Shown one piece after another: positions 3,441 through 27,086 of a DNA stretch of 64,000 bases. The position numbers and the translations under genes were made by a program. Below the pieces are notes generated by a model. It was not told the origin of the DNA. It searched no databases and worked only from the letters and a program-made list of their open reading frames with translations. The stretch's first letter is position 1, and every line of letters begins with the position of its first letter. Origin of the DNA: Mycolicibacterium helvum (GTDB lineage: Bacteria; Actinomycetota; Actinomycetes; Mycobacteriales; Mycobacteriaceae); NCBI RefSeq assembly GCF_010731895.1, contig NZ_AP022596.1:6336812-6400811 (forward strand), read 5' to 3'.

Positions 3441-4289
3441 ATGCTTGAGACTGAAGCACTAGAGACTGGGGTATGGCAAGCGTTCGATGGTTGGCTGACC
3501 ATCTTTAACGACACGCTAGAACTCACCGCGGCGGTACCGCACGCGTTCAAGTATGTCGTCGATTCTGTGGACACGGATAAGTGGGCACATATCAACCGCA
3601 TACTCGGCATGATCGCCGGTCAAACCTATGACGCCTGTAAGAACGTCATCGACCGCGAGCATGAGACGCTCCACGTCCTGTGCCTTCTGGCCTCCTGGGG
3701 TGCATTCGAAGCGTTCATCGAGGAGGCAACGAAAGCCGCCTTGCGAGCAGAACCCGCACTCCTCGCAAAGCCTGAGTTCGCCAGAACAACAAGGAAAGTG
3801 GCAGAGAAGAATCTATCCCCGGACGACAGTCGGGAGGAGATCATCGACAAAGTTGTGAACGGCCAGCGCGGGCCGCTGACCGAGGACGGCGACGGCAAAT
3901 ACGAAGACCAACTGCGACTCGCCGACCTCGGGGATCAGGTCCCGCGTGACCTCGCGAAGGCGCTCATGGAGGCGCAGCAGGTCCGCAATGTCTGGGCACA
4001 CAATAGCGGGCGGGCCGACGACGTGCTGATGAGACAAGCGCCTGGACTCGGGGTCCAGATCGGAGACACGGTCAAGGTCGACCTAAAGATGCTCGGGACG
4101 TACATCCTGGCACAAAACACCTACGCCACAATCATCATCAACCGCTTTCGCAGTAAGCACGGGCTGCCAGCGATGGAATGCCACGGCGGCGTGAACATGT
4201 TCAAGTCATCTTTTGACCAACTGTATCCTAGCGCTCTATCTGCCTATGAGCTGCAGAAAAGCGTAAAAGCGGAACGGAGGCAGAAATGA
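3441..4289 (+). CDS. HEPN-like protein, first of a tandem paralogous pair
   Basis: 282 residues. The key feature is RNVWAH at residues 182-187, an R-x4-H motif of the kind forming the RNase active site in HEPN-superfamily proteins. It sits in a helical context (EAQQVRNVWAHNSGRADD). An upstream helical block (LLASWGAFEAFIEE, ~82-95) is also seen in the neighbour. The next gene starts at an ATGA overlap and carries a closely similar core, so the two are tandem paralogues probably made in equal amounts. HEPN proteins are common toxins in abortive-infection and toxin-antitoxin systems. The family is inferred from the motif and predicted helices, not from a search. Confidence 0.65.
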   Translation: MLETEALETGVWQAFDGWLTIFNDTLELTAAVPHAFKYVVDSVDTDKWAHINRILGMIAGQTYDACKNVIDREHETLHVLCLLASWGAFEAFIEEATKAALRAEPALLAKPEFARTTRKVAEKNLSPDDSREEIIDKVVNGQRGPLTEDGDGKYEDQLRLADLGDQVPRDLAKALMEAQQVRNVWAHNSGRADDVLMRQAPGLGVQIGDTVKVDLKMLGTYILAQNTYATIIINRFRSKHGLPAMECHGGVNMFKSSFDQLYPSALSAYELQKSVKAERRQK

Positions 4290-4984
4290 GCGAGGATGAC
4301 TCAGCCGTCGATCCGGCACAGCTGGCGTTCCAACGGTTTACAGAGCTGATAGGTGAATTTACGCATTTCAGCGTGTCTGCCTTTGGTGGAATCAAATTGG
4401 CTAACGACGCCCATAACTTGGGGCGCACTATCGGCATGCATGAAAAGCCGCGCAAAGATACAGGAGCCCAATTCGAATATCTTCGCGGTCTGATGCTCCT
4501 CGCGCTATGGGCAGGGTTCGAAGCATTCTTCGAGGATTTCTGCAAGGGAGTGCTGATGCGGACAATCTCAGCGCAGGAGGCTCAGTCTCAGTACGTCAAG
4601 ATCTTCAACAAGTCGCGGTCAAAGCGAAAGACCTCACTAACCAAGTTCGAGGCAATCCTCGAGCCACTTGCTCGTCATGGCGACATACCGCCCAACCTAC
4701 TCACCGCGTTCAAAGAAGCCGAAGCCATCCGAAATATCTGGGCCCACAACGCAGGCCGCGTCGATGAGAAGTTCCTTCACGATGCACCTGGGCTTGAGCT
4801 GACCCTCGGCGACAAAGTCAACATGGACGTGGACCAGTACATCAAATACATCCAAGCGATCTCGATGTACTCCATAGTGATCAGCACGCGGGACACGATC
4901 GCACTCGGATACGCCGCGCTTCCAGAGGATTACATGGGGGACGGCCAGTTCAGGGCTGACTACGCCACGCTGTTCTGTTCTTAG
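4286..4984 (+). CDS. HEPN-like protein, second of a tandem paralogous pair
   Basis: 232 residues, starting inside the stop codon of the preceding gene (ATGA) with GGAGG upstream. It shares with that gene the block LALWAGFEAFFED (~72-84), the R-x4-H motif RNIWAH (149-154) and the tract after it (APGLELTLGDKVNMDV versus APGLGVQIGDTVKVDL). The N-termini differ. Two divergent HEPN proteins in one operon could form a heterodimer, or one could restrain the other; the sequence does not decide. Both keep R and H, so neither is an obvious dead copy. Function unknown, toxin or defence role inferred. Confidence 0.65.
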   Translation: MSEDDSAVDPAQLAFQRFTELIGEFTHFSVSAFGGIKLANDAHNLGRTIGMHEKPRKDTGAQFEYLRGLMLLALWAGFEAFFEDFCKGVLMRTISAQEAQSQYVKIFNKSRSKRKTSLTKFEAILEPLARHGDIPPNLLTAFKEAEAIRNIWAHNAGRVDEKFLHDAPGLELTLGDKVNMDVDQYIKYIQAISMYSIVISTRDTIALGYAALPEDYMGDGQFRADYATLFCS

Positions 4985-6858: not shown

Positions 6859-7887
6859 ATGGCGCCGATGATCGACGCATTGGTCATTCTTCGGCTCGAA
6901 GGGAAGCCCGTCGCGCAACGGGAAAGACGGGGTCGACGCTCAGCCGAGGTGCTCGCATTCCTCCGCAGCCACCCCGAAGGGGCGCAGTACTCGGATATGT
7001 ATGCCGCTCTGGGCAATTCGGGTATAAAGGCGCTGGATCGTCTGGTGGCAAGCGGCGACATGCTGAAGCCAGCCCGAGGCCGTTACGTCGCGACACAACC
7101 GGCGGATCCTCAGCGCCCGAAGGTCCCCGGCGGAGTCACAGCGCGAACGGTGGTGAGCATGCTGGTTGTCCTGTCAGCGGCGCTCGACGATGCGATGAGA
7201 CAGGGCTTAGTGACCCGCAACGTCGCACGCATGGTCAAGCGTCCAGCCATCAAGCACCACGAGATGGCCACGTGGACACCTCAACAAGCGACGCAGTTCC
7301 GGGACCACATCCGAGATGATCGACTGGCAGCATGCTGGCTGCTGACCCTCCTAGGGCTGCGGCGATCAGAAATCCTGGGACTGCGGTGGTCTGATGTGGA
7401 CTTCGATGTGGGCACGGTGACAGTGGCCCGGGGGCGCGTTGTCGTCCAAGGTGTTGGAACGGTGACAGGTGATCCCAAGTCGAAGCGATCACGGCGCGTG
7501 CTGCCGATGCCTCCCGACATCTTCGCCGCATTACGCACGTTTAAGGTTCAGCAGGCCGCTGAGCGGCTCGCGTTCGGGAACGGTTACCAAGACAGCGGAC
7601 TGGTTGCAGTCAACGAGAACGGTTCACCGATTCGACCAGAAACCTACTCGTCGGAATTTGCGCGCCAGTCGAAATCTGCTGGGGTGCCTGCAATTCGGCT
7701 ACACGACGTCCGCCACACAGCTGCAACCATGCTGCTCGACGGTGGCACCACCGCGATCGCGACTGCGAAGTGGCTGGGCCACGATCCTGCCATCACACTG
7801 CGGGTGTACGGGCACGTCTATGACGATGCTTTGGCGGCGGCCGGCGACGCACTGATGGGTCGGACTCGTGCGACCGAACTGCGATAG
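6859..7887 (+). CDS. Tyrosine integrase of element A, N-terminally truncated
   Basis: 342 residues. The catalytic domain is complete: R168 (LLGLRRSEI), H282-x-x-R285 (LHDVRHTAAT), H308 (WLGHDP) and Y317. It lacks roughly 130 N-terminal residues present in the second integrase of this window, namely the arm-binding domain and part of the core-binding domain. An in-frame stop lies just upstream (6844-6846), and the IS256 element ends 204 bp before the start. Residues 27-78 form a winged-helix-like insert, also seen in the other integrase. It belongs to the element whose att core is at 11304-11353. Probably inactive. Confidence 0.8.
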   Translation: MAPMIDALVILRLEGKPVAQRERRGRRSAEVLAFLRSHPEGAQYSDMYAALGNSGIKALDRLVASGDMLKPARGRYVATQPADPQRPKVPGGVTARTVVSMLVVLSAALDDAMRQGLVTRNVARMVKRPAIKHHEMATWTPQQATQFRDHIRDDRLAACWLLTLLGLRRSEILGLRWSDVDFDVGTVTVARGRVVVQGVGTVTGDPKSKRSRRVLPMPPDIFAALRTFKVQQAAERLAFGNGYQDSGLVAVNENGSPIRPETYSSEFARQSKSAGVPAIRLHDVRHTAATMLLDGGTTAIATAKWLGHDPAITLRVYGHVYDDALAAAGDALMGRTRATELR

Positions 7888-8040: not shown

Positions 8041-8388
8041 ATGACTCGGGGAAGCGCGACGTGGGCACTGTGCTGGTTCTTCGCCGTCATCGGCGTGATC
8101 GCAGTATCGATCGGCATAGTGTTCATCGTCGCCGTTCCGATATCAGCGAGCGACAGCGACGGATTAACGTTGTCGTGCGGCACCACCATGAAAATCGACG
8201 AACAATCATTTGATCGATACGCCGAGATGCGACTCTCGAACCCGGACCCGTCAGGTCCGCCGCCTGACTGCGTCGGAGCAATCAGGACGCGACGCACATG
8301 GGCCATCACCACCGCGGGGGTCGGCGCCGCACTCCTCGTGTCAGCATTAGCGTTAGGGCGGAGCTCTAGACGGGCTGACGCTGTTTGA
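8041..8388 (+). CDS. Small two-TM membrane protein
   Basis: 115 residues from ATG 8041 (MTRGSATWALCWFF). Two hydrophobic helices are clear: about residues 8-35 (ALCWFFAVIGVIAVSIGIVF onward) and 86-105 (WAITTAGVGAALLVSALALG). The polar loop between them contains two cysteines that could pair. A start at 7999 is possible but less convincing. It lies between the integrase of element A and the protease/HEPN cassette and is transcribed toward that cassette. Function unknown. Confidence 0.55.
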   Translation: MTRGSATWALCWFFAVIGVIAVSIGIVFIVAVPISASDSDGLTLSCGTTMKIDEQSFDRYAEMRLSNPDPSGPPPDCVGAIRTRRTWAITTAGVGAALLVSALALGRSSRRADAV

Positions 8389-8410
8389 TCCCTAGATGGA
8401 AAGTCGACCG

Positions 8411-8947
8411 CTACGCCGAGCCGATGGCTAGATTCGCCGACGCAATGGGTTTGGACGTGTAGGTCCGCCCGCCGCTTTCTACAGTCGCGATGATGCGTTG
8501 TCGGCGTGGATCGATCACTCCGCTGGCGGCGGACAGCGCGCGGATATTTACGACGCCGGTGAAGAACGTCGCTTCCGCGCCGGGTGCGATGTCGTGCGGG
8601 ACCGACGGGCACCCCAGTGGGTCGTCAACGGAGACAAACGAGGTGCGGGCGGGGTCGGCTCTTAATGCCCACTTCGCGACGTGGAAAGGTGCGCGTCCCG
8701 CGTTGACGATGTTGACGCCGACGACAAACTGCCCGCCCTGTGGAAACTGCGAGATGGACGTGCGGAGCGACTCCCGTACGTCGCGGCTCGCGTCGTTCGT
8801 CAGCAATCCGCCGCCGTAGTGGTAGCCGACGACCGGTGTCAGCTTGGGCCGCGCGCCCTGCATGAGGAAGGTGTACACCTGCCAGGTCAACGAGGAGACG
8901 GCAACGCCGAACCCCAGTAGACCGAGTATGAACGCGGCGATGGTCAT
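8411..8947 (-). CDS. Membrane-anchored partner protein of the HEPN cassette
   Basis: 178 residues. One N-terminal transmembrane helix (TIAAFILGLLGFGVAVSSLT, ~2-21) is followed by a soluble beta-rich domain with a Gly-rich tract (GYHYGGGLL). The start codon overlaps the stop of the HEPN gene (ATGA), so the two are translationally coupled. The soluble part ('VGVNIVNAGRAPFHVAKWALR') resembles small immunoglobulin-like or anchored sensor domains, but I cannot name a family. It probably tethers the system to the membrane or acts as its restraint or target. That role is inference. Confidence 0.65.
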   Translation of the reverse strand: MTIAAFILGLLGFGVAVSSLTWQVYTFLMQGARPKLTPVVGYHYGGGLLTNDASRDVRESLRTSISQFPQGGQFVVGVNIVNAGRAPFHVAKWALRADPARTSFVSVDDPLGCPSVPHDIAPGAEATFFTGVVNIRALSAASGVIDPRRQRIIATVESGGRTYTSKPIASANLAIGSA

Positions 8948-9807
8948 GACAGGTCCCTGACTGACGCATGAGGTGCCTCGATGAGGTCACACGCGTCGAC
9001 CCATCGTGCAAGCAGGCTGAGAACCGATAGCCGTTCGACGGCCTCCTGCGGGGTCATCTCGCCCGGACCGTGTGTCGCCGGGTTCCGGATCGTCATTTGC
9101 GCACCTGGGGCAAACCGGCGCAGTCCGTCGTTCATCGAAACCACGGTCCGGTCGGTCTGGTCGGCTGGCCACCGCAGCCTCGGCCTGCCCGGTTCAGGGT
9201 CCTTCTCGGAGAAGGCTTGATTCCACCGGGTCGTATCGTCGAGTTCCGGTCCGCCCGTCCGCGACTTGACCAATTGCACGACGCCATCCGCGGCCGCCTG
9301 CACCGCGTGCCGATAGTGGCCGTCCCGCCATAGCCGTGCCGCCTGACCCCACACCGCTGGATGCATCTGAGCAACGTCGACCGTAGGCGGTGCCTCGGCC
9401 TCGGCTTGGGCCGCCATGTCCTCCAACGACCCGATCATCTGATCGCAGGCGTCGATGATGTTGGCCGGTTCAAGCAAAGGCTTCGGTTGCGTCACGGTGT
9501 GCCAGGCTGCGATCGGGTCAACTACGTCGGGCTTGCCACCGGCGGGGTCTCGGACGCCGAAAACGCAGCCGGTCAGCGCAGGTGCACGACGGGCGCGGCC
9601 CGCCGCCTCGAACGTTCGGGCACGGCGGACTTCGATCTCTGCCGGATCGGACTCGTCTAGCGGGGAAACGGCCGGGAAGATACCGACACCAGGTCCTCTA
9701 TAAGTCGGCGTGTGAAGTTCGAGGAACGACCGGAACGCGTCCCTGAATACCGCGACATGCCCGGCAAGGTCGCGAAGATAGGTGGGGTTGCGGTCTGCGT
9801 CCGCCAT
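8944..9807 (-). CDS. TIGR02391 (Ymh)-type HEPN protein
   Basis: 287 residues. The C-terminal ~140 residues match the TIGR02391/Hypoth_ymh pattern as I know it: HYRHAVQAAADGVVQLV (~164-180), then the strongly conserved MTIRNPATHGPGEM with R241-N-P-A-T-H246, an R-x4-H HEPN catalytic motif. The N-terminal ~140 residues are a separate helical region. It starts at ATG 9807 (MADADRN), 84 bp after the protease stop, and overlaps the membrane protein by four bases. HEPN proteins of this type are linked to defence loci and are presumed RNases. Activity here is inferred from intact R and H. Confidence 0.75.
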   Translation of the reverse strand: MADADRNPTYLRDLAGHVAVFRDAFRSFLELHTPTYRGPGVGIFPAVSPLDESDPAEIEVRRARTFEAAGRARRAPALTGCVFGVRDPAGGKPDVVDPIAAWHTVTQPKPLLEPANIIDACDQMIGSLEDMAAQAEAEAPPTVDVAQMHPAVWGQAARLWRDGHYRHAVQAAADGVVQLVKSRTGGPELDDTTRWNQAFSEKDPEPGRPRLRWPADQTDRTVVSMNDGLRRFAPGAQMTIRNPATHGPGEMTPQEAVERLSVLSLLARWVDACDLIEAPHASVRDLS

Positions 9808-9862
9808 GGTTAAAGACGCTACTTTCGACCGTGCCGACTACCACACCACGACATACCGCTGC
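9808..9862 (-). promoter_or_regulatory. Leader of HEPN gene, copy of conserved block
   Basis: Read on the minus strand, a CAGCGGTATGTCG block is followed 25 bases later by AGTAGCGTC and then 7 bases later by the ATG. The same two blocks at the same spacing precede the protease gene. TAGCGT fits the mycobacterial -10 pattern TANNNT and ends 8 bases before the ATG, which would place the transcript start at or near the start codon (leaderless). The upstream block is too far for a normal -35 and may bind a regulator. Confidence 0.5.
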
Positions 9863-9891
9863 TGCGTTCGCCTAGAGCGGACACACGCGGG

Positions 9892-11115
9892 CTACGTTCC
9901 GGGGAGCGCATCCATCTCGAGAATGCCGCCGAAACCCATCTCATCGAGCGCGCGGACGACCTCGCTCGACGGGATACCGCGATAGAACGACGGGGCGAAC
10001 GCCTTCTCTTTCAGCTCCGCGACGTCGCGGTCTAGGCGTTCGAGCCGTTCGGGCGTGGAGCGCGGTGGTGGCTCTATTTGGTCGTCGCCGCCTGCACCGG
10101 CGCGTGTGGACGTTCCGCTGTCTTCGACAACTAGACCGATGACCCGCCCGTCCTGCGCAACGATCGGTCCACCGCTGTTACCGGGGCGTGCGATCGCCGA
10201 ATACAGGAATATCTTCTGCCGCTCGAACGTCAAAGCGGCCGGGTTGACCACCTCGCCGCGCTGTACCGTGATCGCCATCTCTGCCGTCATTGGCACCCGC
10301 GGGTAGCCGAAAACGAAGACCTCATCGGCCCAGTCGGGGTCACGAAACCCCATGCCACCAAGGCGAGGGATCAACTTGCCTTCAGGCATGTCGAACTCGA
10401 TCACGGCGACGTCGAGTGTGTGATGTGGGTGAGCTGTACCGACGACGGACACTTTCTCTGCTTTGGACAGGTCGCCTGCGGGAGACACCGTCAGGCCCGC
10501 GCTCCTGCCGACGAGTCCGGTCACGACGTGCTTGTTGGTGACGACATGCTTGTTGTCAATGATTAGGCCTGTACCCCAGCTGCCGACCGGGTCACCATGC
10601 TCATCGTGACCGGCCAGCTGCAACGTCACCGCCCGGTAGCTCGGGATGATCAGCGCAGCTCCGAACACCGGCGATAACCAGAGGTTTCCGCCTAGCTGCC
10701 CCTTCGAAATGTGGCCCGTGGAGTAGTAGCGCTCGCCCATGATTGGCAGTTGAGGGTCGCGGCCTACCAACCACAGGAGCCCAGCGCGTTCGAGTTCACT
10801 GAGCAGCTTGGTGAGTTGGATCGCGTTATTCGCACTCGGTACTCGCTGAGCGTCGAGATATCGGGAGAAATCCAGGATGCTCCACGGATCGAACGGCATC
10901 GCATTGCGCGGGTCTCCGGCCGTCGCCGATGAGTCGCCAGCCGGAGGGATAGGTTTGCCGATCGCTTCGGCGACTTGGGGATCATGTGCAACGCTGAAGA
11001 ATTGGTGGGCACACATCGCTACGATGACGCGCCAGTCAGGTGTGCCCGGTTTCAATTCGGCAAGTGTCTGTGCCGGTCGCGGAGGCACGGCCGCCTCATC
11101 GTCGGTATCCGCCAT
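9892..11115 (-). CDS. Trypsin-like serine protease with N-terminal helical domain
   Basis: 407 residues from ATG 11115 (MADTDDEAAV). I chose this start because its upstream sequence matches that of the HEPN gene; a second ATG at 11121 is two codons earlier. The open frame continues far upstream across the att repeat, but that part is not protein-like. The S1-type triad is H196 (VVTNKHVVTG), D235 (HTLDVAVIEF) and S314 (ARPGNSGGPI). Residues ~70-125 form a helical, wing-like domain (LTKLLSELERAGLLWLV), perhaps for partner binding. Residues ~355-372 look coiled-coil (ERLERLDRDVAELKEK). No signal peptide, so cytoplasmic. First gene of the cassette; likely processes or senses something upstream of the HEPN effector (inference). 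Confidence 0.8.
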   Translation of the reverse strand: MADTDDEAAVPPRPAQTLAELKPGTPDWRVIVAMCAHQFFSVAHDPQVAEAIGKPIPPAGDSSATAGDPRNAMPFDPWSILDFSRYLDAQRVPSANNAIQLTKLLSELERAGLLWLVGRDPQLPIMGERYYSTGHISKGQLGGNLWLSPVFGAALIIPSYRAVTLQLAGHDEHGDPVGSWGTGLIIDNKHVVTNKHVVTGLVGRSAGLTVSPAGDLSKAEKVSVVGTAHPHHTLDVAVIEFDMPEGKLIPRLGGMGFRDPDWADEVFVFGYPRVPMTAEMAITVQRGEVVNPAALTFERQKIFLYSAIARPGNSGGPIVAQDGRVIGLVVEDSGTSTRAGAGGDDQIEPPPRSTPERLERLDRDVAELKEKAFAPSFYRGIPSSEVVRALDEMGFGGILEMDALPGT

Positions 11116-11170
11116 GGCCATCGACGCTACTGGCGGCTGGCCGAGTTCTCGTGCTTCGACATGCCGCTGT
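11116..11170 (-). promoter_or_regulatory. Leader of protease gene, copy of conserved block
   Basis: On the minus strand CAGCGGCATGTCG, a 25-base spacer, AGTAGCGTC and 7 bases precede the ATG. This arrangement and spacing are identical to the leader of the HEPN gene (9808-9862), while the spacer sequences differ. Conserved blocks in an unconserved background suggest functional sites: a TANNNT -10 (TAGCGT) near a leaderless start, and a regulator or activator site upstream. Confidence 0.5.
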
Positions 11171-11230
11171 GCCGTAGGTGGGCCGCAAGCGAATGCGCGC
11201 TGACACACCCAACCCAGCACTCGCAAACTG

Positions 11231-11249
11231 TTGGCACACTCTTGGCACA
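11231..11249 (+). repeat. Integrase arm-type direct repeats, element A side
   Basis: Two copies of TTGGCACA start at 11231 and 11242, 11 bp apart, 55-73 bp before the att core. An equivalent pair with TTGGGACA, also 11 bp apart, lies beside the other core (26952-26970). They are probably recognised by the N-terminal domain of the integrases. Their presence left of the left core indicates that another element, not host DNA, adjoins there. Confidence 0.6.
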
Positions 11250-11303
11250 ACGGGGGTTCAGGATTCTGAGGAGAAGCCAACTTGCAAAGCCCTGAACTGA
11301 GGA

Positions 11304-11353
11304 TTTGATGGTGGGCGCGGACGGTATCGAACCGCCGACCGCTGGTGTGTAAA
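11304..11353. repeat. Left 50-bp att core (partial tRNA-Val copy)
   Basis: Exact 50-bp copy of the 3' half of the tRNA-Val gene plus five bases beyond its CCA, identical to 27037-27086. It covers the T arm, variable region and part of the anticodon arm and stops inside the anticodon loop, so it is not a functional tRNA. This is the attL side of element B and at the same time the right junction of element A. Confidence 0.92.
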
Positions 11354-11383
11354 GGGACCGGAGAAAGTGAACACACGTTCTGG

Positions 11384-11427
11384 CGTGTCCACCGCGTGCA
11401 GGTCAGCGTTGGTGGCCGTGTCCACCC
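11384..11427 (+). repeat. Possible second-arm integrase sites (CGTGTCCACC repeats)
   Basis: CGTGTCCACC occurs at 11384 and again at 11417, inside element B just right of the left core. TGTCC is related to the complement of the TTGGGACA arm sites. Position and pairing suggest P'-arm integrase or excisionase sites. The interval 11354-11527 has no gene. Confidence 0.35.
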
Positions 11428-11527
11428 GGTGCCACCGCGTCTATGGGGTTCGGTCGCGTAGTGGGACACTGGCGGCCCACTGACGAACGGATGTTCGGGC
11501 AGTTTGGGGTGCGCCTGGCCCCGCTGG

Positions 11528-12301
11528 TCAAGCGGGCGGGAATGGCTTCCAAGCCCACCCGGCGCGGCGGCTCCATGTGAGCACCTGCCGATAGCCTCCG
11601 GTGACCCAGAGGTGCGTCGCGGCGAAGTGCTCCCCTGGCGCGTACTCAGGCACATAGCCGCTCGGCGAAAGCAACTGGTCGAACAGATCGAACCCCGGCC
11701 CATAGTGGTGGACGCCGACGGCGAGGTGCCGTTCGGTGACGCCGTCGTGGTCTCGGAGCTTGTTCAGCTTCGACGTAATGCGTGGGTTCGAGAGCATTCG
11801 GTGCAAATCGTGGTCCAGATTCTCATCGCGGGGAAAGCCTACGGTTGGCGGCATCCGCACAGCTACGGCGCCGGGAGCGGCCATCGCGCTGGGCGACAGC
11901 CCGAGATCCGACTCGATGAACCACTGAACGTCTTCGCTGTCCTCACTGAGCGGTAGTTGCACGGGGTCATCGACCCCGTGACGGTCACATGCAGCGATAA
12001 CCGCAGGCAGTCGCTTTCGCAGCTGATCGATTCTCGTGCGAAGCTCAACCCTGACCATCCACCCACGAGGACTATCAACGGTGATCGTTTCACCGTCGGC
12101 GTTCAGCTTGGATTGCAGCGCCGCAGCCCGTCCATCGCGATAGGTGGTCATCTCCACAGCCCCGGTCGCACCTTCGGATGAGGTGAACACGTAGTCGACT
12201 GCCCGCTGGCGTCCGTCACGGTCGAACTGTTCTAGCTCGACGTTGTGCAGAAGCTCGATGAGCACCCGCAGGTACTTCTCTTCCTGACGTTCGTCACCCA
12301 C
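11528..12301 (-). CDS. Hypothetical protein, possible PD-(D/E)XK-like nuclease fold
   Basis: 257 residues, first gene inside attL and transcribed toward it. The N-terminal part reads RAVDYVFTSSEGATGAVEMTTY. An acidic residue followed about 15 residues later by V-E-M-T is reminiscent of the Asp and E-x-T/K positions of restriction-like nucleases, but I cannot confirm the fold. The C-terminal half is rich in His and aromatic residues (HHYGPGFDLFDQLL). No transmembrane segment. Its isolated position at the element edge suggests cargo rather than a phage core gene. Confidence 0.55.
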   Translation of the reverse strand: MGDERQEEKYLRVLIELLHNVELEQFDRDGRQRAVDYVFTSSEGATGAVEMTTYRDGRAAALQSKLNADGETITVDSPRGWMVRVELRTRIDQLRKRLPAVIAACDRHGVDDPVQLPLSEDSEDVQWFIESDLGLSPSAMAAPGAVAVRMPPTVGFPRDENLDHDLHRMLSNPRITSKLNKLRDHDGVTERHLAVGVHHYGPGFDLFDQLLSPSGYVPEYAPGEHFAATHLWVTGGYRQVLTWSRRAGWAWKPFPPA

Positions 12302-12337
12302 TGCTGCACCGTAGCGAATGCGACCGCGTTGACGCCT

Positions 12338-12607
12338 TCACGCGACCTTCCGCGTCTTCGGTGGTTTGATCCCTGCCGCTTTGGCGGTCCACAGGTCGGC
12401 ACGCGTCCGCTGATTCCCGCAGGCGACGCAGAAGTAATCGCAAATCAGGGCCTTGCCGCCGTGCCAGGTGACGGCGTCGGGCTCCGTCAGCGTGGCCGCG
12501 CGTGTCCGGCTGTCGGCGTTGTGCCCCAGCGGGTTACAGCCTGGGCAGTAGTCGGTCAGCCAGAAGTCATGGAACGGGCTGGCTTCAGTGGCGGTGTTTA
12601 CGGTCAT
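12338..12607 (-). CDS. Small zinc-finger-like phage protein
   Basis: 89 residues with two cysteine pairs, CPGC (~21-24) and CDYFCVAC (~56-63), probably a zinc-binding knuckle, followed by a basic tail (KPPKTRKVA). Such short zinc proteins are frequent between structural and early genes of actinobacteriophages. It probably ends the leftward gene string that begins at 15363. Precise role unknown. Confidence 0.6.
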   Translation of the reverse strand: MTVNTATEASPFHDFWLTDYCPGCNPLGHNADSRTRAATLTEPDAVTWHGGKALICDYFCVACGNQRTRADLWTAKAAGIKPPKTRKVA

Positions 12608-12679
12608 GGCGGGGCTCCTCGGTTGTGCTGTCGTTGGGTGAGGTGGTGAGGCCCGTGGTTGTCGGGTATCGGCCCGCTG

Positions 12680-13261
12680 TCAGGCGGGCACGCGCTTCTT
12701 CTTCGCAGTCATCGGCGGTACAGACCGCAAGCCGGAGCGAAGACACGCCAGCTGCGCTGACGTGTGCCCGCCGCCGTCGGTGATGTCGAGGGCGGCGAGC
12801 ACGTCGGCGTGGCGGACCTCGCCATGAGCGAGGAGCTTCTGGGCTGTCCTGATGATTGCGGGCCAACATCTCTCCAGCAGCGGCACGACGTCACGCCCGG
12901 TGTGCCAACCGTCAGCGGGAGCACTCGCGATCAGCACCCGATCGTCGTCATGGCCGGTGGTCCGCAATGCTGTGAACACCTGGCGCTGGCTCGGGCAGCG
13001 ACCCCCAGCGCCGAACTTCGCCTCGCCGTACGGTCCCGCGTACGCCACCTCGGCATTGCGATGCTCGGGAAAGTCGTCGGGCTCAAACCTGGTGAGACCG
13101 TGCATGCCGGTGACGCGACCACCGGCGACTACAGCGCGATGCAGCTGTGCCCCGAGAGCAACTCCGACCACAGCGTGGGACGCCTCATGAACACACAGGT
13201 CCAGGTGTTCCCGGTCGGCGGCGCTGAGATCCGCCAGCGTGAGCGGCCTGGATCGGGTCAC
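12680..13261 (-). CDS. M41-like HEXXH metallopeptidase-type protein
   Basis: 193 residues from a GTG at 13261 that overlaps the upstream stop (GTGA). The motif HEASHAVVGVALG (~21-33) matches the FtsH/M41-type zinc-binding H-E-x-x-H helix; a downstream 'AEVAYAGPYGEAKFG' segment carries the acidic residues expected for the third metal ligand region. Proteins of this type occur in actinobacteriophages and prophages and may act on regulators or capsid parts. The longer frame upstream of 13261 overlaps another gene and is rejected. Confidence 0.6.
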   Translation of the reverse strand: MTRSRPLTLADLSAADREHLDLCVHEASHAVVGVALGAQLHRAVVAGGRVTGMHGLTRFEPDDFPEHRNAEVAYAGPYGEAKFGAGGRCPSQRQVFTALRTTGHDDDRVLIASAPADGWHTGRDVVPLLERCWPAIIRTAQKLLAHGEVRHADVLAALDITDGGGHTSAQLACLRSGLRSVPPMTAKKKRVPA

Positions 13262-13620
13262 CGGTGTGCTCCGTCTGTGCTGGCGGTTATTGCGTGTTGG
13301 ATCGGTCGGCGTCGGGACGGTGGCGCGGTACACAACGCAGGTCCGCCACCGTCCCGGCGCCGACCACCACTGACCGGAGTCGAGTCTGTGTAGTTGGCGC
13401 GAGATAGTCTGTGCAGCAAGCGTTCCCGCTCTTTGCGGTCTTTGGCGTCGGCCCGCGCGGCGCTGGCGTCGAGGTATCGCCCGATGCAGGCCAAGCACCG
13501 CCACCCGTGGACCGAGCCCTTGTAGGTCGCGCACGGCCCCCCGCACTCCCAGCAGAGCGCCCCGACATATTCGTCGGCGCCAGTCATGGCGCTTTCGAGG
13601 GCCGCAGTCGCAGCGATCAT
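13258..13620 (-). CDS. Zinc-ribbon-like hypothetical phage protein
   Basis: 120 residues. Cysteine pairs CWEC (~23-26) and CLAC (~42-45) with GGPC between them suggest a small zinc ribbon. A charged helical stretch follows (ARADAKDRKERERLLHRL). Its 3' end is coupled by a four-base GTGA overlap to the HEXXH gene and its 5' end overlaps the preceding head-module gene by four bases, so it is part of one operon. Function unknown. Confidence 0.55.
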   Translation of the reverse strand: MIAATAALESAMTGADEYVGALCWECGGPCATYKGSVHGWRCLACIGRYLDASAARADAKDRKERERLLHRLSRANYTDSTPVSGGRRRDGGGPALCTAPPSRRRPIQHAITASTDGAHR

Positions 13621-14429
13621 GGCGTCACCGTCGCTGCGCCGACGAGCTTCTCGTAGCCGATGACAGCTGATCGTTCAGCCACCGCGATGAACGTGTTGTT
13701 GTGGGCGTCGATGGCATCACGCAACTGGACCTCACTGCGCCAACCGAACGGCTGACTGGTGGCCACCAGGGTGTCGCCGAGGCCGTCGATGTATCCCCCG
13801 CCGAACACCCAACGGTGACCGAGCGGTGTGGTGAAGCCGGTTCCGGTGCGGGTCAACAGATTGTCGCGAGCTGCCCGTGCCGCCCACCCCGTCGAGGCGT
13901 GGACGAACCCCAGAGTGTTGGTGCGGCCCAACGCGTCCTCCAGCGCGGAAACAGCGTCAACGAGATCACCGGCGCTACCCGGACTACCGGCGTCGGCGAG
14001 CAGCCTTGTCGCGAATTGGCGCTCGACTGCGTTCTGTTCTTCGAGGCGAAACACCTGGGCGGCACGCTGTCTCACCTCGGCTCGGCTGGGCGCGGTCAGG
14101 TCGCATTCGTCTGCCGCCCAGACCGTCATGGCCGCGAAGGGGTCGCCAATCTGGGGACGCAGCGCCGCCTTGCGATCCTCCGGCGTCAGATCGTCCAGGC
14201 TGGCACACCAGTCAGCCACCCAGACGCCAAAGGACTGCCCGCCGCCGTAGTTGCCCACGGGGCGCATTTCGATGCCGCTGTCGAGCCAGCGAGTCGGCCC
14301 AGACTCCGGTATCCACTCGGTTGCCGCATACAGACCGTTGGGTGAGGGATTGAGCGGCGGCGGCGCGAAACGCACCGGCAGCATGGCCGAGTACGTATCG
14401 ACTGGGAAGTCGGGCAACGAGACGGTCAT
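13617..14429 (-). CDS. Phage head-structural-like protein
   Basis: 270 residues. Its pattern ('WVADWCASLDDLTPEDRKAALRP' style N-terminal half, 'MTVWAADECDLTAPSRAEVRQRA' centre, 'LGHRWVFGGGYIDGLGDTLVATS' C-terminal part) looks to me like a family of actinobacteriophage head proteins found near capsid genes. That is recognition by eye, not a search. Overlaps of four bases on both sides place it in a tight operon. Small size for a major capsid protein leaves decoration, minor head or satellite capsid as options. Confidence 0.5.
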   Translation of the reverse strand: MTVSLPDFPVDTYSAMLPVRFAPPPLNPSPNGLYAATEWIPESGPTRWLDSGIEMRPVGNYGGGQSFGVWVADWCASLDDLTPEDRKAALRPQIGDPFAAMTVWAADECDLTAPSRAEVRQRAAQVFRLEEQNAVERQFATRLLADAGSPGSAGDLVDAVSALEDALGRTNTLGFVHASTGWAARAARDNLLTRTGTGFTTPLGHRWVFGGGYIDGLGDTLVATSQPFGWRSEVQLRDAIDAHNNTFIAVAERSAVIGYEKLVGAATVTP

Positions 14430-15094
14430 AGTGTCACTCCCAGTGATTCGAGTTCGGCACGCGCACGTTCGGTTTCAGTCGCGGGCTTACTCTTTGCAGC
14501 TCGGTGAGCGCGGGCCTTCTCGTCGCGGTCGAGGCGGCGCTCCAGGGCCAGCGCTGCGCGGTCGACTTCACGCAGCGCGGTCAGCACTCGGTCGGACACC
14601 GCCGAGGTCAGCGCATTGCCGAGAAGGTCGGCCAGCTCGGTTGAGTAGGGCTCGACCAGCAGGATCAGAGTCGCCGACCAGGTGCCCGCCGCCAGCGCAT
14701 CGTCGGTGACCTCGGGCAGCGTGGGGCGCTCGGTTAGGTCGACCAGAATGCGGATGCTGCGGCCCCGTTGATCGATACCGAGGTGGGCGGTCCTGCGCCG
14801 GGCGTCACGCTCGGCCAGCAAGCCGACGGCGGCGTGCACCAAGCCGTGCACACCCAGCGCTAGGTCATCGACCAGATGCCAGTACGTGGCCGCAACGGGC
14901 GAGGTACCGACCCGCTGGGCCAACGGGTCACAGATCGCGGCTATCTCGGCTGTCAGACTCCAGCCCCCGCCGAGAGCGACGATGAGTCCAGCACGGCGCC
15001 GGTCTCGCCGCTCTGCCTGGCTGTAATCCGGCACCGGCTTCGGACGCCGGGCAGCGAGCGCGGCGTGAGTCCGATTGTGGGCGCGGACGGTCAT
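14426..15094 (-). CDS. Hypothetical protein of head module
   Basis: 222 residues, mostly helical, with basic N-terminus (RRPKPVPDYSQAERRDRRRAG) and a C-terminal charged helix (ALERRLDRDEKARAHRAAKS) that could be a coiled coil, as in scaffold-like proteins. Coupled by four-base overlaps to both neighbours. No family recognised. Its position directly upstream of the head-like gene would fit an assembly role (inference). Confidence 0.55.
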   Translation of the reverse strand: MTVRAHNRTHAALAARRPKPVPDYSQAERRDRRRAGLIVALGGGWSLTAEIAAICDPLAQRVGTSPVAATYWHLVDDLALGVHGLVHAAVGLLAERDARRRTAHLGIDQRGRSIRILVDLTERPTLPEVTDDALAAGTWSATLILLVEPYSTELADLLGNALTSAVSDRVLTALREVDRAALALERRLDRDEKARAHRAAKSKPATETERARAELESLGVTL

Positions 15095-15363
15095 CGGGAC
15101 ACCGCCGGGTGGGCGTGCTCGAGCAGTTCTGTCAGAGCTGGCACGTGCGCCGGATTCAGATGCTCGCGGTCGGCGTCAAGCACCCGCCGGACTCGCCAAT
15201 ACGCTAGGGCGGCGAGACATTCTGCGACCCGCATATCAGTGTCAGTCGCTCCCCGGGAGCGCAGCGCGGCTAACCGGCCCGACCATTGCGCCGGGGTCAG
15301 CGTGCCGGGATCGGTCGCATATGTGCACGAAATCGTGGCGGTCACGACACCATGAGAACACAT
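15091..15363 (-). CDS. Small hypothetical protein, first gene of head module
   Basis: 90 residues, first gene of the leftward string of overlapping genes (15363 down to 12680). It has a helical middle (RVAECLAALAYWRVRRVLDAD). Overlaps the next gene by four bases. The divergent HEPN-like gene starts about 165 bp away, so the interval 15364-15527 should hold promoters for both directions. No function can be assigned. Confidence 0.5.
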   Translation of the reverse strand: MCSHGVVTATISCTYATDPGTLTPAQWSGRLAALRSRGATDTDMRVAECLAALAYWRVRRVLDADREHLNPAHVPALTELLEHAHPAVSR

Positions 15364-15527
15364 GACAATGCAGCGGGGCAGCTCCGCAGCCGCGGCGGGC
15401 GTGTCAACTAGATATGTTGTACCCCAACAGATTTAGTGGACACGGTAGACACTCACGACCGCTCGAATTAAACGGCTAGGCCAGGCCGCGAAACCACGCG
15501 AACCCACGCGCATGATGAACTGGATTG

Positions 15528-16469
15528 ATGATCCCCGCCCCAGTCGGACGCGAGCGAACCAGCGGCGACGGTTGCCGTCGGTACATGCCGCTGCACTATA
15601 CGTTCGATACACGGAACACCCTGATGGACCATGAGGAGGAGTACGGCGCCAGCTGGGAGCCGGATATCCGAGCTCAATGGCGCCAAAATCTGAGGCAATT
15701 CACCGTGGAGCTGATCCATGAGTTTGGCGCTGCGGACTTCGAGGCGAAGTTCACTGACTATCGAGCTCTCGGCGCGAAGCCGATGAGTGTTGTCGCTCTG
15801 CACAATGTCTTTTTGGCTCAGATTCGGACCGCTTTCGCCGCAGGCGCTTATTACCCAGCTCTTGTCGGAGCTAGCGCATTAGGCGAGCGGATTCTCAATC
15901 AGCTAGTGGTGGTGCTGCGCAACGACTATCGCGGCCATCCGGCGACGACGGACGAAATTGCTGGTTGGCGGTCATTCACCAAGTGGGGTCAATGTACCGA
16001 CGCGCTGGCAGGCTGGGGCGTGCTGTCGGACGAACTCGTTGACCAGTTCACTCGACTAGGGAAGCTGCGTCACCGCGCCGTGCACTACAACCCCGGGCTG
16101 GACAACACCGACGCCCGAGACCCCGCGATCGACGCCGTCCGTCTGATCCAGGACATCATTCGGGAGCTCTTTCCGCCGTTCGGTGGTCCGCCGCGCTTTA
16201 TCGAGGGCACCACCGGCCAATCATTTCTCAGTTCGAACGCTGAAACACAGCCACTGATCAGGCGTTTCTATCTCCCGGCATGTGTCCTCGTTTCTCCCCG
16301 CTACGAGATGCGACCAATGCGGCGCGAGGATGGACGCCCGTGGTTCGACGTGTACGACGATGGTGACTACCAGATCCGCTACCCGACTTTGACTGACGCG
16401 GAGTACGCCGACCACTGCAATGACATCGCACGCTTTTGGCCGGAATCGACTGACGGACAGTCAGACTGA
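15528..16469 (+). CDS. Lone HEPN-like protein inside satellite prophage
   Basis: 313 residues from ATG 15528; the ATG at 15585 (MPLHYTFDTRN) is also a plausible start. The motif LRHRAVHYN (R and H at ~181 and 186 when counted from 15528) is an R-x4-H HEPN signature in a helical context, following a long helical block (YPALVGASALGERILNQLVV). The C-terminal ~110 residues are a separate, beta-rich part. It is the only plus-strand gene in a long minus-strand block and ends convergently, overlapping the next gene by nine bases. That is typical of an acquired cargo gene. Defence or superinfection role is inferred. Confidence 0.6.
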   Translation: MIPAPVGRERTSGDGCRRYMPLHYTFDTRNTLMDHEEEYGASWEPDIRAQWRQNLRQFTVELIHEFGAADFEAKFTDYRALGAKPMSVVALHNVFLAQIRTAFAAGAYYPALVGASALGERILNQLVVVLRNDYRGHPATTDEIAGWRSFTKWGQCTDALAGWGVLSDELVDQFTRLGKLRHRAVHYNPGLDNTDARDPAIDAVRLIQDIIRELFPPFGGPPRFIEGTTGQSFLSSNAETQPLIRRFYLPACVLVSPRYEMRPMRREDGRPWFDVYDDGDYQIRYPTLTDAEYADHCNDIARFWPESTDGQSD

Positions 16470-16895
16470 ACGCAGCGGAGACCCGTGGTAGGGGCAGCGC
16501 CGCTGCGCGAGCGCACCTCGCTGCGAGGTCGGAGAGTCGGTGAACAACGGGCTCAAGTGCCCGCACTGCTCGCACTCCTCGCAGCCGCGAAAATCGACCT
16601 TGCCCAGGCAAAAGAGCGTTGCCACGCGGGGTGATACATGGTTCAACACTGCGTCGGCGTCGGCGTCGGCATCGGACATCGGACGCTCGACACCCGTGCA
16701 ATTGCGACATCCGCAGCCACGTCCCTCGCTATCGGCGCGCTCCGGCTCTGAGATGAGGAATGCGCGCAGCTGCTCGCGGCCACCGCGGGCGAGGTTGCCC
16801 TCCTTATCCCCGTACAGACAGCCGGGATCGTGATGGCACACCGCAACATCGCCGATGTCGGGCGTACAAAGTGAGCGGTCAATCTGGTCGGTCAT
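16461..16895 (-). CDS. Cysteine-rich phage protein with DA repeat
   Basis: 144 residues with many cysteine pairs (CGCRNC, CEECEQC) implying zinc binding. In between lies a short (Asp-Ala)4 run encoded by a GCGTCG-type microsatellite near 16650-16675. Its start overlaps the terminase stop by four bases, so it is co-transcribed with the packaging gene. Possibly an HNH-like or zinc-knuckle packaging accessory, but no HNH triad is evident. Confidence 0.5.
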   Translation of the reverse strand: MTDQIDRSLCTPDIGDVAVCHHDPGCLYGDKEGNLARGGREQLRAFLISEPERADSEGRGCGCRNCTGVERPMSDADADADAVLNHVSPRVATLFCLGKVDFRGCEECEQCGHLSPLFTDSPTSQRGALAQRRCPYHGSPLRSV

Positions 16896-18451
16896 GGTCG
16901 GTCTCCAATCCGTCGCCGCATCCAGGCTGGAGGCGGTGGCATACGGCCCTCGCGTGCGCGGCGCGCAACCCCGATGGGGCTGACGAAGTGTGAATGACCC
17001 CCGTGCACCAGCACGTCATGGGCGATCACCGCTGCCGCAACGCAGTCGGGCTGGTGCTGCCCGGCCTGCCATCGAGTGGCCTGACCCTCAAGGCTTTCGA
17101 GGTGGCCGACGAGGCGCACCGTACCGGTTTCAAGCCCTTGGATCAGCTTGGCCGAGCGCGCCAGCGCGTCGCCCCGGCCCCGCCCGCTGCGGTTGCTCTT
17201 GGGTGGCCACGACGTGACACGGATCGGGTGCGCCAGACGGTAGCGGCGCAAGGTGGTGTTGAGCACCGACAGATAACCCTCGCGTGCGGTAAATGTCTCG
17301 ACGGCGATCTCGCTGGCACCGGTGTCGATGGCGAGTTGGACCGCCGCCCGTGCCCACGCCTCGGGGGTCATCGGCTTACTGATGTCTCGGTGGACGGCCA
17401 CCACGCCCTCGCGAGTCAGACTGGCCGCAACGATTCCCGCCGCGTCGCCTTGGCCGCTGTCGCTCGGATCAACCGCGACCACGGTGCGCACCGGATCGGC
17501 GGGCATTGCGGACATCCGCCAGACGTCTAGCCACGCGCGCCGGATCACGTTGCCCTCGGGCGACGTTGGTACGCCCTGAAACTCGGCCCACCACATGCGC
17601 TCCCCCACCGCTCGGCGCAGGTCGGCGAAGTGCTCGGCGGTGCGCCCAACGGCGGAGACCATGACCTCGCCGGGCGCGCGACCGAGCGAATCGGGCACAC
17701 CGGAGTCGGCCACCGCCGGGACGCTGACCACCCGCCACCGCTCAGGCTCCTCGGCGAGCAGCGTGCCGATCAAATCCTCGGGATGCCAACGTGTTCCGAT
17801 GACGACCACAGACGCGCCGGGCTCGGTGCGGGTCAACAGCGTGCTGCGAAACTCGGCGACCACGCGGCGGCGGTAGGTCGGCGAGTCGGCCTCGGTCATG
17901 TTCTTCACCACGTCGTCCACGATCAGCAGCCCATCGGTGCCATGGCCGGTCAGTCCCGACAGCAGACCCGACGCCAGCAGCCCGCCCCGGTGTCCGTCGA
18001 GGGTCCATTGCCCGGCACTCGCCTTGTCTGGAGACAGGGCGAGGCCGAGCAGGTAGCCGTGTTCGGCGATGAGCTGGCGCGCCTCACGGCTGTGCTTCTC
18101 GGCAAGTTCATCGGCATAGGACGCCAGGATGATTCGGGCATCGGGGTTACCACGCAGCGCGGTCAAGGTGCCCAGCACTGCGGTGGTGGTTGACTTCCCC
18201 TCACGCGGCGGCATGACGATAATGAGCCGCTGGTCGGGCTCGCGGATCGCGCGGTCGATTTCCTGCCCGATGAGCGCTACCGCTGGCGTGACCCTGTAGC
18301 CGCGCATGATGCGCCGACCGAGTTCGTGAGGTGTGGTCGGCACCCGCCGTGCGCGCAGTTGCGCCAGGTGCTCGGCCTCGGCCAGCGCTTGGGCGGCCTG
18401 CTCGATGCTGCCGAACACGAGAGCGTCTGAGCTGGCATTATGCCCCGTCAT
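16892..18451 (-). CDS. terL: Phage terminase large subunit
   Basis: 519 residues, normal for the family. DNA-packaging motor with N-terminal ATPase and C-terminal nuclease. Walker A-like PPREGKST at 81-88, Walker B LLIVDD at 175-180, coupling motif 'VVIGTRWHPEDL' nearby. The nuclease domain begins with VVAVDPSDSGQGDAAG and continues 'EIAVETFTAREGY', giving the expected acidic residues of the RNase H-like fold. Intact frame. The gene means element B can probably direct packaging of its own DNA, perhaps into helper-provided or self-made heads. Confidence 0.93.
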   Translation of the reverse strand: MTGHNASSDALVFGSIEQAAQALAEAEHLAQLRARRVPTTPHELGRRIMRGYRVTPAVALIGQEIDRAIREPDQRLIIVMPPREGKSTTTAVLGTLTALRGNPDARIILASYADELAEKHSREARQLIAEHGYLLGLALSPDKASAGQWTLDGHRGGLLASGLLSGLTGHGTDGLLIVDDVVKNMTEADSPTYRRRVVAEFRSTLLTRTEPGASVVVIGTRWHPEDLIGTLLAEEPERWRVVSVPAVADSGVPDSLGRAPGEVMVSAVGRTAEHFADLRRAVGERMWWAEFQGVPTSPEGNVIRRAWLDVWRMSAMPADPVRTVVAVDPSDSGQGDAAGIVAASLTREGVVAVHRDISKPMTPEAWARAAVQLAIDTGASEIAVETFTAREGYLSVLNTTLRRYRLAHPIRVTSWPPKSNRSGRGRGDALARSAKLIQGLETGTVRLVGHLESLEGQATRWQAGQHQPDCVAAAVIAHDVLVHGGHSHFVSPIGVARRAREGRMPPPPAWMRRRIGDRP

Positions 18452-18601
18452 CGGTGGTCCGTTCGATCGACTATCAAGTGGTCGCCAGGTTGGCCGGCTG
18501 GTGTCCTCGCAGGTCAGACCGCACTTTTTCCGGGCCTCGGACGCTCTCAGCGCACTGGGTGACCCAAGTCTGTCCCATCGAGCGGTGGCGCTGCGGGTCC
18601 A

Positions 18602-18901
18602 CTATGAGGGCCATAGCACCTCACCCGGCCTGTATCCGGCGCGCCAGGTAGCGGCATCGCGCTGGCGTTGGGTTGTGGTCGGCCCAGCCAGGCCACGCAG
18701 CACCCGCTCTCCGGTGCAGCCGCGCGTTTGCATGAGTTCGGCGAAGCTCATGCGGACGCGGTACTGCGATCCGAATAGGTGCTCGCGGCGCAGTGTTTCG
18801 GGCGCTGGCGCAGCGATCGGCACGCGGTCAGGCGCGGTGGCTGCGGTGGTCCTGCTGCGGAGGCGGTCGAGCAATCTGCGGCGGTGGCGGTTATCGGGCA
18901 T
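18602..18901 (-). CDS. Small hypothetical basic protein
   Basis: 99 residues, Arg-rich N-terminus (PDNRHRRRLLDRLRSR) then a compact helical part. It overlaps the preceding gene by 11 bases and lies 150 bp upstream of the large terminase. Short basic proteins at this position can be HNH-like or packaging accessories, but no such motif is visible. The 150-bp interval to the terminase shows no gene. Confidence 0.45.
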   Translation of the reverse strand: MPDNRHRRRLLDRLRSRTTAATAPDRVPIAAPAPETLRREHLFGSQYRVRMSFAELMQTRGCTGERVLRGLAGPTTTQRQRDAATWRAGYRPGEVLWPS

Positions 18902-19421
18902 CGGTCTCCCCCTCTCGCTGTCGGCGGCGGTACCGGTCGATCACTGCCAGCGCCGCCGCTTCTGCCTGGGCCAGTACCTCCTCCGGCACATCGGCGAACT
19001 CGTCATTGTCCGTGGTGTCCACGGTGTCTATTTGTGGCGCAACACGCTTCAGCTCAGCCCCGGCGTCAGGCTCAGCATCGTGGGAATCGGGGCTGCGCGC
19101 GCCAGACAGCGACGAAACTGAGGCGGGCGAGTAAGTGCCCGCACCGCCGGGGTTCTCGCGGTTCCTGGCCACACTCAGCCACTGGGCCAGCTCGCCCGCC
19201 GGGAGTCCACTGTGGCCGAGCACCGCCCGGCACAGATCGACGTGCACCGGCCAGAGCGGATCGGTCGGACCGTCGCACTGGCCGAACACCTCGCGGCACC
19301 GTTGTACCGCCCGGTCGGCCATTGTCGCGGCGGTCAGGGTCCCCTCGGACACCTCGGTCATCAGGACCGCCACCGCCTCGGCGGCTGCAACGTCGGGGAC
19401 GGGACGTGCCGGGGCGGTCAC
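18891..19421 (-). CDS. Hypothetical protein in packaging module
   Basis: 176 residues from a GTG at 19421 overlapping the upstream stop (GTGA). The longer upstream frame is an out-of-frame shadow of the preceding gene. N-terminal half helical (AAAEAVAVLMTEVSEGTLTA), C-terminal part acidic (DTVDTTDNDEFADVPEEVL) and ending in a basic helix (IDRYRRRQREG). No domain recognised. Tight coupling with the small-terminase-like gene suggests a packaging or DNA-binding accessory. Confidence 0.55.
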   Translation of the reverse strand: MTAPARPVPDVAAAEAVAVLMTEVSEGTLTAATMADRAVQRCREVFGQCDGPTDPLWPVHVDLCRAVLGHSGLPAGELAQWLSVARNRENPGGAGTYSPASVSSLSGARSPDSHDAEPDAGAELKRVAPQIDTVDTTDNDEFADVPEEVLAQAEAAALAVIDRYRRRQREGETDAR

Positions 19422-22490: not shown

Positions 22491-22572
22491 TCCTAGGTGT
22501 CCTCGTTTCGGTGATAGGTCGCCCCCGGTCCGGTGTCGTTGTCGGGCCGGGGCGCTCTACGTTTCGGATCTG

Positions 22573-22833: not shown

Positions 22834-22856
22834 GGCGTCCACTATGTGCCGAATCG

Positions 22857-22906
22857 TTGATAATTGCCACAGCATTCGGTTATCATTTATTTGTGCTCAC
22901 CGATAA
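22857..22906. promoter_or_regulatory. Divergent operator/promoter region with GATAA half-sites
   Basis: Between the leftward excisionase-like gene and rightward HTH gene. GATAA at 22859-22863 and its complement TTATC at 22880-22884 form an inverted repeat, and a third GATAA occurs at 22902-22906. The A/T-rich stretch is unusual here and fits a repressor-controlled early promoter pair, the element's likely lysis/lysogeny-style switch. Confidence 0.5.
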
Positions 22907-24874: not shown

Positions 24875-24995
24875 GCCAGGGTGGTTGGTGCTAGCAACCC
24901 ATTCGAATGTCGTCCCTCCGCGGGTTTCCACTTCCGGCCCGCTACGGTGGCGGCATACGCACTACCAATGGCATTACAACTGAGGCAGGGCAACA

Positions 24996-26970: not shown

Positions 26971-27036
26971 CTCCATCCCAAGGACGAGGTAGCGCGACGT
27001 TGAGCCGTGCCCAGTTATGAAGGCTGACCTCGACGT

Positions 27037-27086
27037 TTGATGGTGGGCGCGGACGGTATCGAACCGCCGACCGCTGGTGTGTAAAA
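27037..27086. repeat. Right 50-bp att core (attR)
   Basis: Overlaps the 3' half of the intact tRNA-Val gene and is identical over 50 bp to 11304-11353. Identity ends inside the anticodon loop (A at 27087 versus G at 11354). The functional tRNA is on this side, so its 3' half was supplied by the incoming element. Confidence 0.92.

Follow-up and report, generated by a model that had tools for sequence, protein, structure and literature searches.

What joins three adjacent genes in the cargo slot of a mycobacterial integrative element? The genes lie in a 64,000-nucleotide (nt) stretch of the Mycolicibacterium helvum contig NZ_AP022596.1 (positions 6,336,812 to 6,400,811), hereafter called the window. 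They encode a protein with a single predicted transmembrane (TM) helix, a HEPN protein, and a trypsin-like protease. A sequence-only reading had proposed the three as one defence system. Our preferred reading, to which we give an even chance, is a modular anti-phage cassette of the abortive-infection type, carried as cargo by an integrative element at tRNA-Val. Its status as cargo and the presence of an effector are fairly well supported; the adaptor role of the TM protein and the role of the protease are proposed here.

Cargo Slots of Related Integrative Elements

The cassette was claimed to sit in the cargo slot of an integrative element, and it does: it lies between the integrase gene and the tRNA-Val attachment (att) site, in the left of two elements and at the end next to the tRNA. 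To see what comparable intervals hold, the right element's integrase served as query against 198 Mycobacterium genomes, and 37 of them gave matches. With the own genome and two other carriers of the cassette set apart, 20 of the 34 matching genomes were fetched. Thirteen of these slots are at tRNA-Val and seven at tRNA-Pro.

Proteins matching PADLOC models are encoded in 7 of the 20 slots, as single-profile matches that do not prove whole systems. They are LmuA/LmuB (Lamassu), bSEFIR, SoFic, an Old/GajA-type ATPase, PDC-S33 with a RelA/SpoT domain, PDC-S59, and PDC-S23 beside a SocA/Panacea protein. An eighth slot (L242) encodes a RelA/SpoT protein which resembles the PDC-S33 one, based on Pfam only. 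Because defence models are matched in 7 of 20 related slots, the cassette is likely to be anti-phage cargo, and this is the main evidence for that role. The interval from integrase to tRNA would be a slot for defence cargo, comparable to the defence hotspots known in P4-like satellites, as described in the accessible text of PMC9122126.

Domains and Conserved Residues of the Three Proteins

All three leftward open reading frames (ORFs) are intact, with the positions and strand that had been claimed (Table 1). The protease matches PF13365 in a Pfam profile search (E = 8.4e-17, residues 181–328). Its proposed catalytic residues are kept among relatives: in an alignment of 102 sequences including the query, selected by length from 120 listed relatives, H196 and D235 are conserved in 102/102 and S314 in 101/102. 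The N-terminal domain exists as well, and a winged helix describes it better than the earlier term "helical". No signal sequence was seen in the protease by eye. Membership of the protease in RT-Protease_XI, PDC-M35A, HamA1, or similar models was not accepted, as these PADLOC matches sit on the trypsin domain.

The HEPN assignment passes profile searches with both PF09509 (2.5e-23, 82.6 bits; cut-off 25) and TIGR02391 (3.4e-12, 46.6 bits; cut-off 39.45). The motif R241-x4-H246 is intact as claimed: R241, N242, and H246 are present in all of 116 aligned sequences (relatives filtered by length, query included).

The TM protein matches no family in Pfam, PADLOC, NCBIfam, or PHROGs. Its structure model (mean predicted local distance difference test score, pLDDT, 90.9) consists of a helix at residues 3–29 and a beta-sandwich at about 32–171, and no gasdermin, the pore protein of protease-activated gasdermin systems, is among the structure matches listed for this model. 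Of 45 aligned relatives 42 were scored, and in 38 of these the stretch C-terminal to the helix carries more positive charge than the N-terminal one, which suggests that the beta-sandwich faces the cytoplasm. The coupling of this gene to the HEPN gene can be read directly in the sequence, where the HEPN stop codon and the TM start codon overlap as ATGA. The protease gene is separated from the HEPN gene by 84 bp. The ratio of nonsynonymous to synonymous substitution rates (dN/dS) is 0.09–0.22 across the three genes, compared with the copies in two other species (L084 and L046), and this indicates that all three are under purifying selection.

Table 1. Positions of the cassette genes, their domains and upstream elements, and the features that delimit the integrative elements (window coordinates; aa, amino acids).
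Feature	Position	Strand	Remarks
Single-TM protein	8411..8947	-	178 aa; helix 3-29, beta-sandwich about 32-171
HEPN protein, TIGR02391/PF09509 (Hypoth_Ymh)	8944..9807	-	287 aa; HEPN domain residues 147-270; R241-x4-H246
Promoter-like element, HEPN gene	9816..9854	-	ATGTCG-N27-TAGCGT, 8 nt before ATG
Protease, winged-helix and trypsin-like serine	9892..11115	-	407 aa; ATG at 11115 or in-frame 11121; PF13365
Protease, Trypsin_2 catalytic domain	10132..10575	-	residues 181-328
Protease, N-terminal winged-helix domain	10711..11052	-	residues 22-135
Promoter-like element, protease	11124..11162	-	ATGTCG-N27-TAGCGT, 8 nt before ATG
Tyrosine integrase of the cassette-bearing element	6859..7887	+	PF00589; without N-terminal part
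att repeat (tRNA-Val 3' end), right end of the cassette-bearing element	11304..11353	-	
att repeat within intact tRNA-Val, right end of the neighbouring tandem element	27036..27085	-	

Co-Occurrence of the Three Genes

Relatives were searched for in 396 Mycobacterium genomes, with limits of E ≤ 1e-3 for the TM and HEPN proteins and E ≤ 1e-18 for the protease. They are present in 39 (TM), 26 (protease), and 38 (HEPN) genomes. Conserved co-occurrence of all three, the check put forward for the earlier proposal, was not found: the trio is seen in 3 of 396 genomes (the own genome, G136, and G239), which represent one near-identical lineage.

These counts bear on a dedicated three-part system, in which the protease would sense infection or process the TM protein and so free the HEPN protein to cut RNA, all parts being needed. 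We consider it unlikely. Part of the idea stands. G136 and G239, which correspond to records named M. colombiense E1334 and M. vinylchloridicum CECT 8761, are two other species, and both keep the order integrase, TM, HEPN, protease, tRNA-Val seen in the window. The cassette-adjacent integrases are 91% (L046, in G136) and 87% (L084, in G239) identical to that of the cassette-bearing element. The upstream regions of the protease and HEPN genes share a common element, and in G264 another TM gene directly overlaps the protease gene by 4 bp. The notion of a fixed set does not stand. Near full-length HEPN relatives (E < 1e-40) are found in 20 of the 38 HEPN genomes, and these have the TM gene in only 4 and the protease in 3. 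HEPN and TM genes occur without the protease in L085, L047, and L207. The protease, for its part, occurs with Hma genes or alone. As each part is found alone or with other partners, we rejected a fixed set of three genes as the default reading.

The same pattern is seen beyond the genus search. A family-level sample of 201 genomes has HEPN in 6 and TM in 3; G123 carries both of these, and no close protease is seen there. In a plasmid collection, HEPN is present in 47 records (E ≤ 1e-10) and TM in 2 (E ≤ 1e-5), and the protease in 2 others (E ≤ 1e-20). Both TM records are Rhodococcus plasmids which also carry HEPN, and in one of them, pNSL1, the two genes overlap. Three Streptomyces plasmids have no TM gene listed beside HEPN in their incomplete gene table.

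A different PF09509-like HEPN gene is present at L199 (7436-8161) and L200 (6340-7071 after reverse complement). It shows 4-nt overlaps and lies within an apparent type I restriction operon, judging the neighbours by eye.

Exchange of Partners

Which partners do the TM and protease genes have elsewhere? For TM, 36 loci were compared (35 from the genus and G123), with the own locus set apart and three genomes with fragments only left out. Twenty-four are at one conserved chromosomal site, four are with HEPN (two of them with the protease), two with PycC and PycTM, two with a family of 287-aa proteins, and four with none of these. In the phylogeny of TM proteins, those of the trio group in a separate clade (0.995). 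The other HEPN-linked forms and the Pycsar-linked forms are included in one clade (0.972), of which the exact join is weak (0.45).

The genes beside TM in the Pycsar context match PycC and PycTM in PADLOC (2.8e-92 and 4.2e-29; profiles run on L086 only). At L086 (7705-9596) and L088 the order is PycTM, PycC, and then the TM-family gene 18 bp downstream. It is possible that this gene is an unrecorded Pycsar accessory. The 287-aa family is coupled to TM in L102 (8348-9211) and L097. It contains the stretch DKHR, and no Pfam or PADLOC model matched it. One of these two loci includes the protease: in L102, the TM gene overlaps both the 287-aa gene and the protease gene by 4 bp.

The protease loci number 27 (the window, L046, L084, L102, and L171–L193). 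Three are with HEPN and TM, one is with the 287-aa family and TM, four precede HmaA/HmaB, one overlaps a DrmMI-like methylase gene, itself after a DpdE-like helicase gene, and 18 have no assigned partner. The Hma genes were recognized by profiles in one of the four loci and by tblastn in all four. The 18 include the solo protease of L171 and that of L176, near a reverse-transcriptase gene. One subclade of the protease phylogeny (FastTree support 0.995) spans the forms linked to HEPN and TM, to the 287-aa family and TM, and to Hma, the form near the reverse transcriptase, and solo forms.

The protease could be a stand-alone defence or stress gene, placed beside HEPN and TM only through the same cargo slot. 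In genome G541, outside the 20-slot sample, it lies alone between an integrase (PF00589, 2.5e-21) and tRNA-Pro, and 23 of the 27 protease loci have no HEPN or TM relative nearby. Against this stand the 4-bp overlap between the TM and protease genes in L102 and the upstream element described below, which precedes HEPN and protease genes alike, including a protease-free HEPN gene (L085), and the 287-aa gene. On balance, a stand-alone protease appears rather improbable.

At L173 (5438-6294) and L177, a ThsB-like TIR gene overlaps a gene for an 8xMP-family membrane protein upstream of the protease-Hma block (profiles for L173 only).

A Shared Upstream Element

The sequence ATGTCG-N27-TAGCGT precedes the protease gene, the HEPN gene, and the 287-aa gene (L102), about 8 nt from the start codon. 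The own genome (6.4 Mb) has two exact matches, both in the cassette, against 0.4 expected from base composition. Seven further genomes, picked because each carries one of these genes, have eight exact matches against three for the reversed control; six of the eight are at the start codon of such genes, and two (G136) are not near one. G531 has no exact match. Among 1053 genes called in the loci, 7 have the element upstream with a spacing of 26–28, and all seven are HEPN, protease, or 287-aa genes. Where starts were set by homology, the exact element is found before 8 of 27 proteases and 3 of 11 HEPN genes; in the HEPN gene of L046 the spacing is 25 bp by eye. The 27-bp spacers differ by eye between the gene families with both boxes kept, near-identical copies not being independent.

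Searches that tolerate mismatches give another picture. With up to one mismatch the own genome has 19 matches against 49 for the reversed control, and with up to two the window has 6 against a shuffle mean of 4.7, not above chance. The element is therefore informative only in its exact form at a start codon. Among viral contigs, 64 stretches contain the exact element, and 7 of 52 distinct ones checked have a start codon and an ORF of at least 60 codons within 15 nt. The first residues of these seven ORFs are by eye unlike the three families, and the matches are not distinguishable from chance.

TAGCGT fits the mycobacterial -10 box TANNNT, which according to the accessible text of PMC3898074 is centred 7–12 bp upstream of start sites. 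This fit and the distance to the start codon indicate that the element is probably a common promoter giving a leaderless transcript. A sigma-70 scan of 8250–11500 found no promoters and nothing above shuffles, and a terminator scan of the same region found 2 terminator-like sites against a shuffle mean of 1.6.

The element precedes HEPN without a protease nearby in L085. In G271 it precedes a HEPN gene, and no protease match is seen there at E ≤ 1e-18; a regulator other than the protease is therefore probable. The same genome weakens another idea, namely that the element is read by the winged helix of the protease.

Could HEPN and TM be a toxin–antitoxin module by which the element is stabilised, TM being a membrane antitoxin and the protease a separate passenger? 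The two genes overlap translationally, and the toxin-like one comes first. The accessible text of PMC3710099 presents HEPN families as ribonuclease (RNase) toxins, and leaderless transcripts predominate among M. tuberculosis toxin–antitoxin pairs in that of PMC3898074. However, the TM family seems not to be reserved for HEPN: its members also come after PycC and 287-aa genes, and mostly occur without these partners. The plasmid records with HEPN mostly contain no TM relative (47 records versus 2), and the shared element links the protease with HEPN. We regard such a pair as quite unlikely.

Proposed Mechanism

For the modular cassette, the core would be the HEPN–TM pair, with the HEPN protein as the RNase effector. 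The accessible text of PMC3710099 describes HEPN families of this kind as RNases in defence contexts. The TM protein would be an adaptor whose beta-sandwich is held at the cytoplasmic face of the membrane, on the side of the HEPN protein and the protease. It may keep its partner inactive, or couple it to a membrane-proximal cue. Upon infection, the HEPN protein, held or scaffolded by TM, would be released or activated and cut RNA, leading to growth arrest.

The protease would not be a fixed part but a mobile accessory that several defence modules have taken up. Most simply, it would be a cytoplasmic activating or processing enzyme which cuts TM, HEPN, or a phage protein, and its winged helix could bind nucleic acid or a partner. 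The protease and HEPN–TM might be co-expressed, since both are preceded by the ATGTCG-N27-TAGCGT element at a distance suited to a leaderless transcript.

It can be speculated further that mycobacteria have a mobile-defence regulon, in which one portable leaderless promoter switches on unrelated acquired defence genes through a host regulator unlinked to the cassette. The regulon would comprise genes for HEPN RNases, for the 287-aa family, and for winged-helix proteases, whether linked to Hma or not. This is a tentative idea as a whole. If true, the protease would be a general activating protease, and TM a general membrane adaptor of several effectors, including those of Pycsar.

Several observations weigh against a defence cassette of this kind. 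Six of the 20 sampled slots are without cargo, four have only short or unclear ORFs, which were left out of the scan and are counted here, and the scanned cargos of L240 and L252 match nothing. In the cassette itself, the PADLOC match of the HEPN protein is marginal (PD-Lambda-3_B, 0.0015), TM has none, and those of the protease track the trypsin fold. The exact trio is a single lineage. The 24 TM loci at the conserved chromosomal site (L089–L117, e.g., L089:8460-8954) are without these partners, so TM may have a non-defence role. Of the 27 protease loci, 18 lack an assigned defence partner. As for the upstream element, its one-mismatch matches in the own genome are no more frequent than those of the reversed control, and it is absent from the HEPN–TM pairs of L047 and L207, both of the Rhodococcus type, as well as from the more distant protease and HEPN genes.

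The Two Tandem Elements and Neighbouring Genes

The att repeat is 50 nt long, and a third copy is located about 3.4 kb left of the window. The three copies show that two elements, of 15.7 and 14.7 kb, are in tandem at tRNA-Val. The element with the cassette contains insertion sequences and a truncated integrase, whose gene adjoins that of a Mutator/IS256-type transposase. A TrwC relaxase gene is near the integrase in the cassette locus of G136 and in the protease locus of G541.

Two genes at 3441-4984, in the same element as the cassette, overlap by 4 nt and each contain R-x4-H (RNVWAH and RNIWAH, by eye). They have no Pfam match, and the sole PADLOC match, of the first gene, is marginal. They are possibly a second HEPN pair.

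The right element (11304-27085) encodes a terminase large subunit (16892-18451), a primase-helicase-like protein (20424-22490), and an integrase (23465-24874), based on PHROGs, and looks like a phage satellite. Its integrase–tRNA slot (24996-26890) holds an AAA ATPase and a PIN-like protein, which match HEC-03B and HEC-03A in PADLOC (2e-143 and 6.9e-36). A 314-aa protein of HEPN-like appearance is encoded at 15525-16469, with the stretch RHRAVHYN seen by eye and no Pfam or PADLOC match.

Comparison with Known Systems

No description of this trio was found in the literature searched, most subscription papers being outside its reach. One close likeness is to the HEPN–TM immune system of phage-inducible chromosomal islands (PICIs), for which Fillol-Salom 2022 is reportedly the source study. 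Both combine a HEPN protein, as effector there and as probable effector here, with a transmembrane protein as cargo of small integrative elements, as can be told from the passages of PMC11087260 and PMC12948488 that cite the PICI system. In the cassette, the two genes are likewise adjacent, with the ATGA overlap and the helix of the TM model. The pair may thus work like this known kind. The comparison is by description only. No protease is named in those passages, whereas one accompanies the pair here. The cassette is actinobacterial, and its TM family is also found with Pycsar and others.

The Ymh (PF09509) HEPN proteins of Anantharaman 2013 (PMC3710099) belong to the same family, with the catalytic R-x4-H and with mobile and restriction-linked contexts. 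The accessible text of that paper describes solos and fusions to pMORC, AbiJ-NTD1/2, and AbiTii, and names no membrane partner for this family. The form found here differs in two ways: it has two domains, the N-terminal half being conserved, and it is paired with a membrane protein.

Hma (helicase-methylase-ATPase) is called a DUF499-centred BREX-related system in the accessible text of PMC12839542. Close relatives of the protease lie 14–130 bp before HmaA, going by the gene calls made here, in the four mycobacterial loci, with the ATGTCG box intact in three, whereas neither the three cassette proteins nor their upstream neighbour match the PADLOC models of HmaA and HmaB. The same four proteins have no match to the PycC cyclase model. 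In Pycsar (PycC and PycTM), the likeness is in the TM relative, which follows the cyclase gene by 18 bp in G381 and G385 (54% and 53% identity); here, the partner of TM is HEPN.

Anti-phage mechanisms in the phylum of mycobacteria are called understudied in the accessible text of PMC10693628. As far as we can tell from the literature searched, a TM family with multiple partners, a recruited winged-helix protease, and a shared upstream element are new in mycobacteria. If the modular reading is true, the short promoter signature could reveal further hidden mycobacterial defence genes, and the membrane adaptor and the protease would be plug-in parts common to RNase, cyclic-nucleotide, and helicase-methylase defences.

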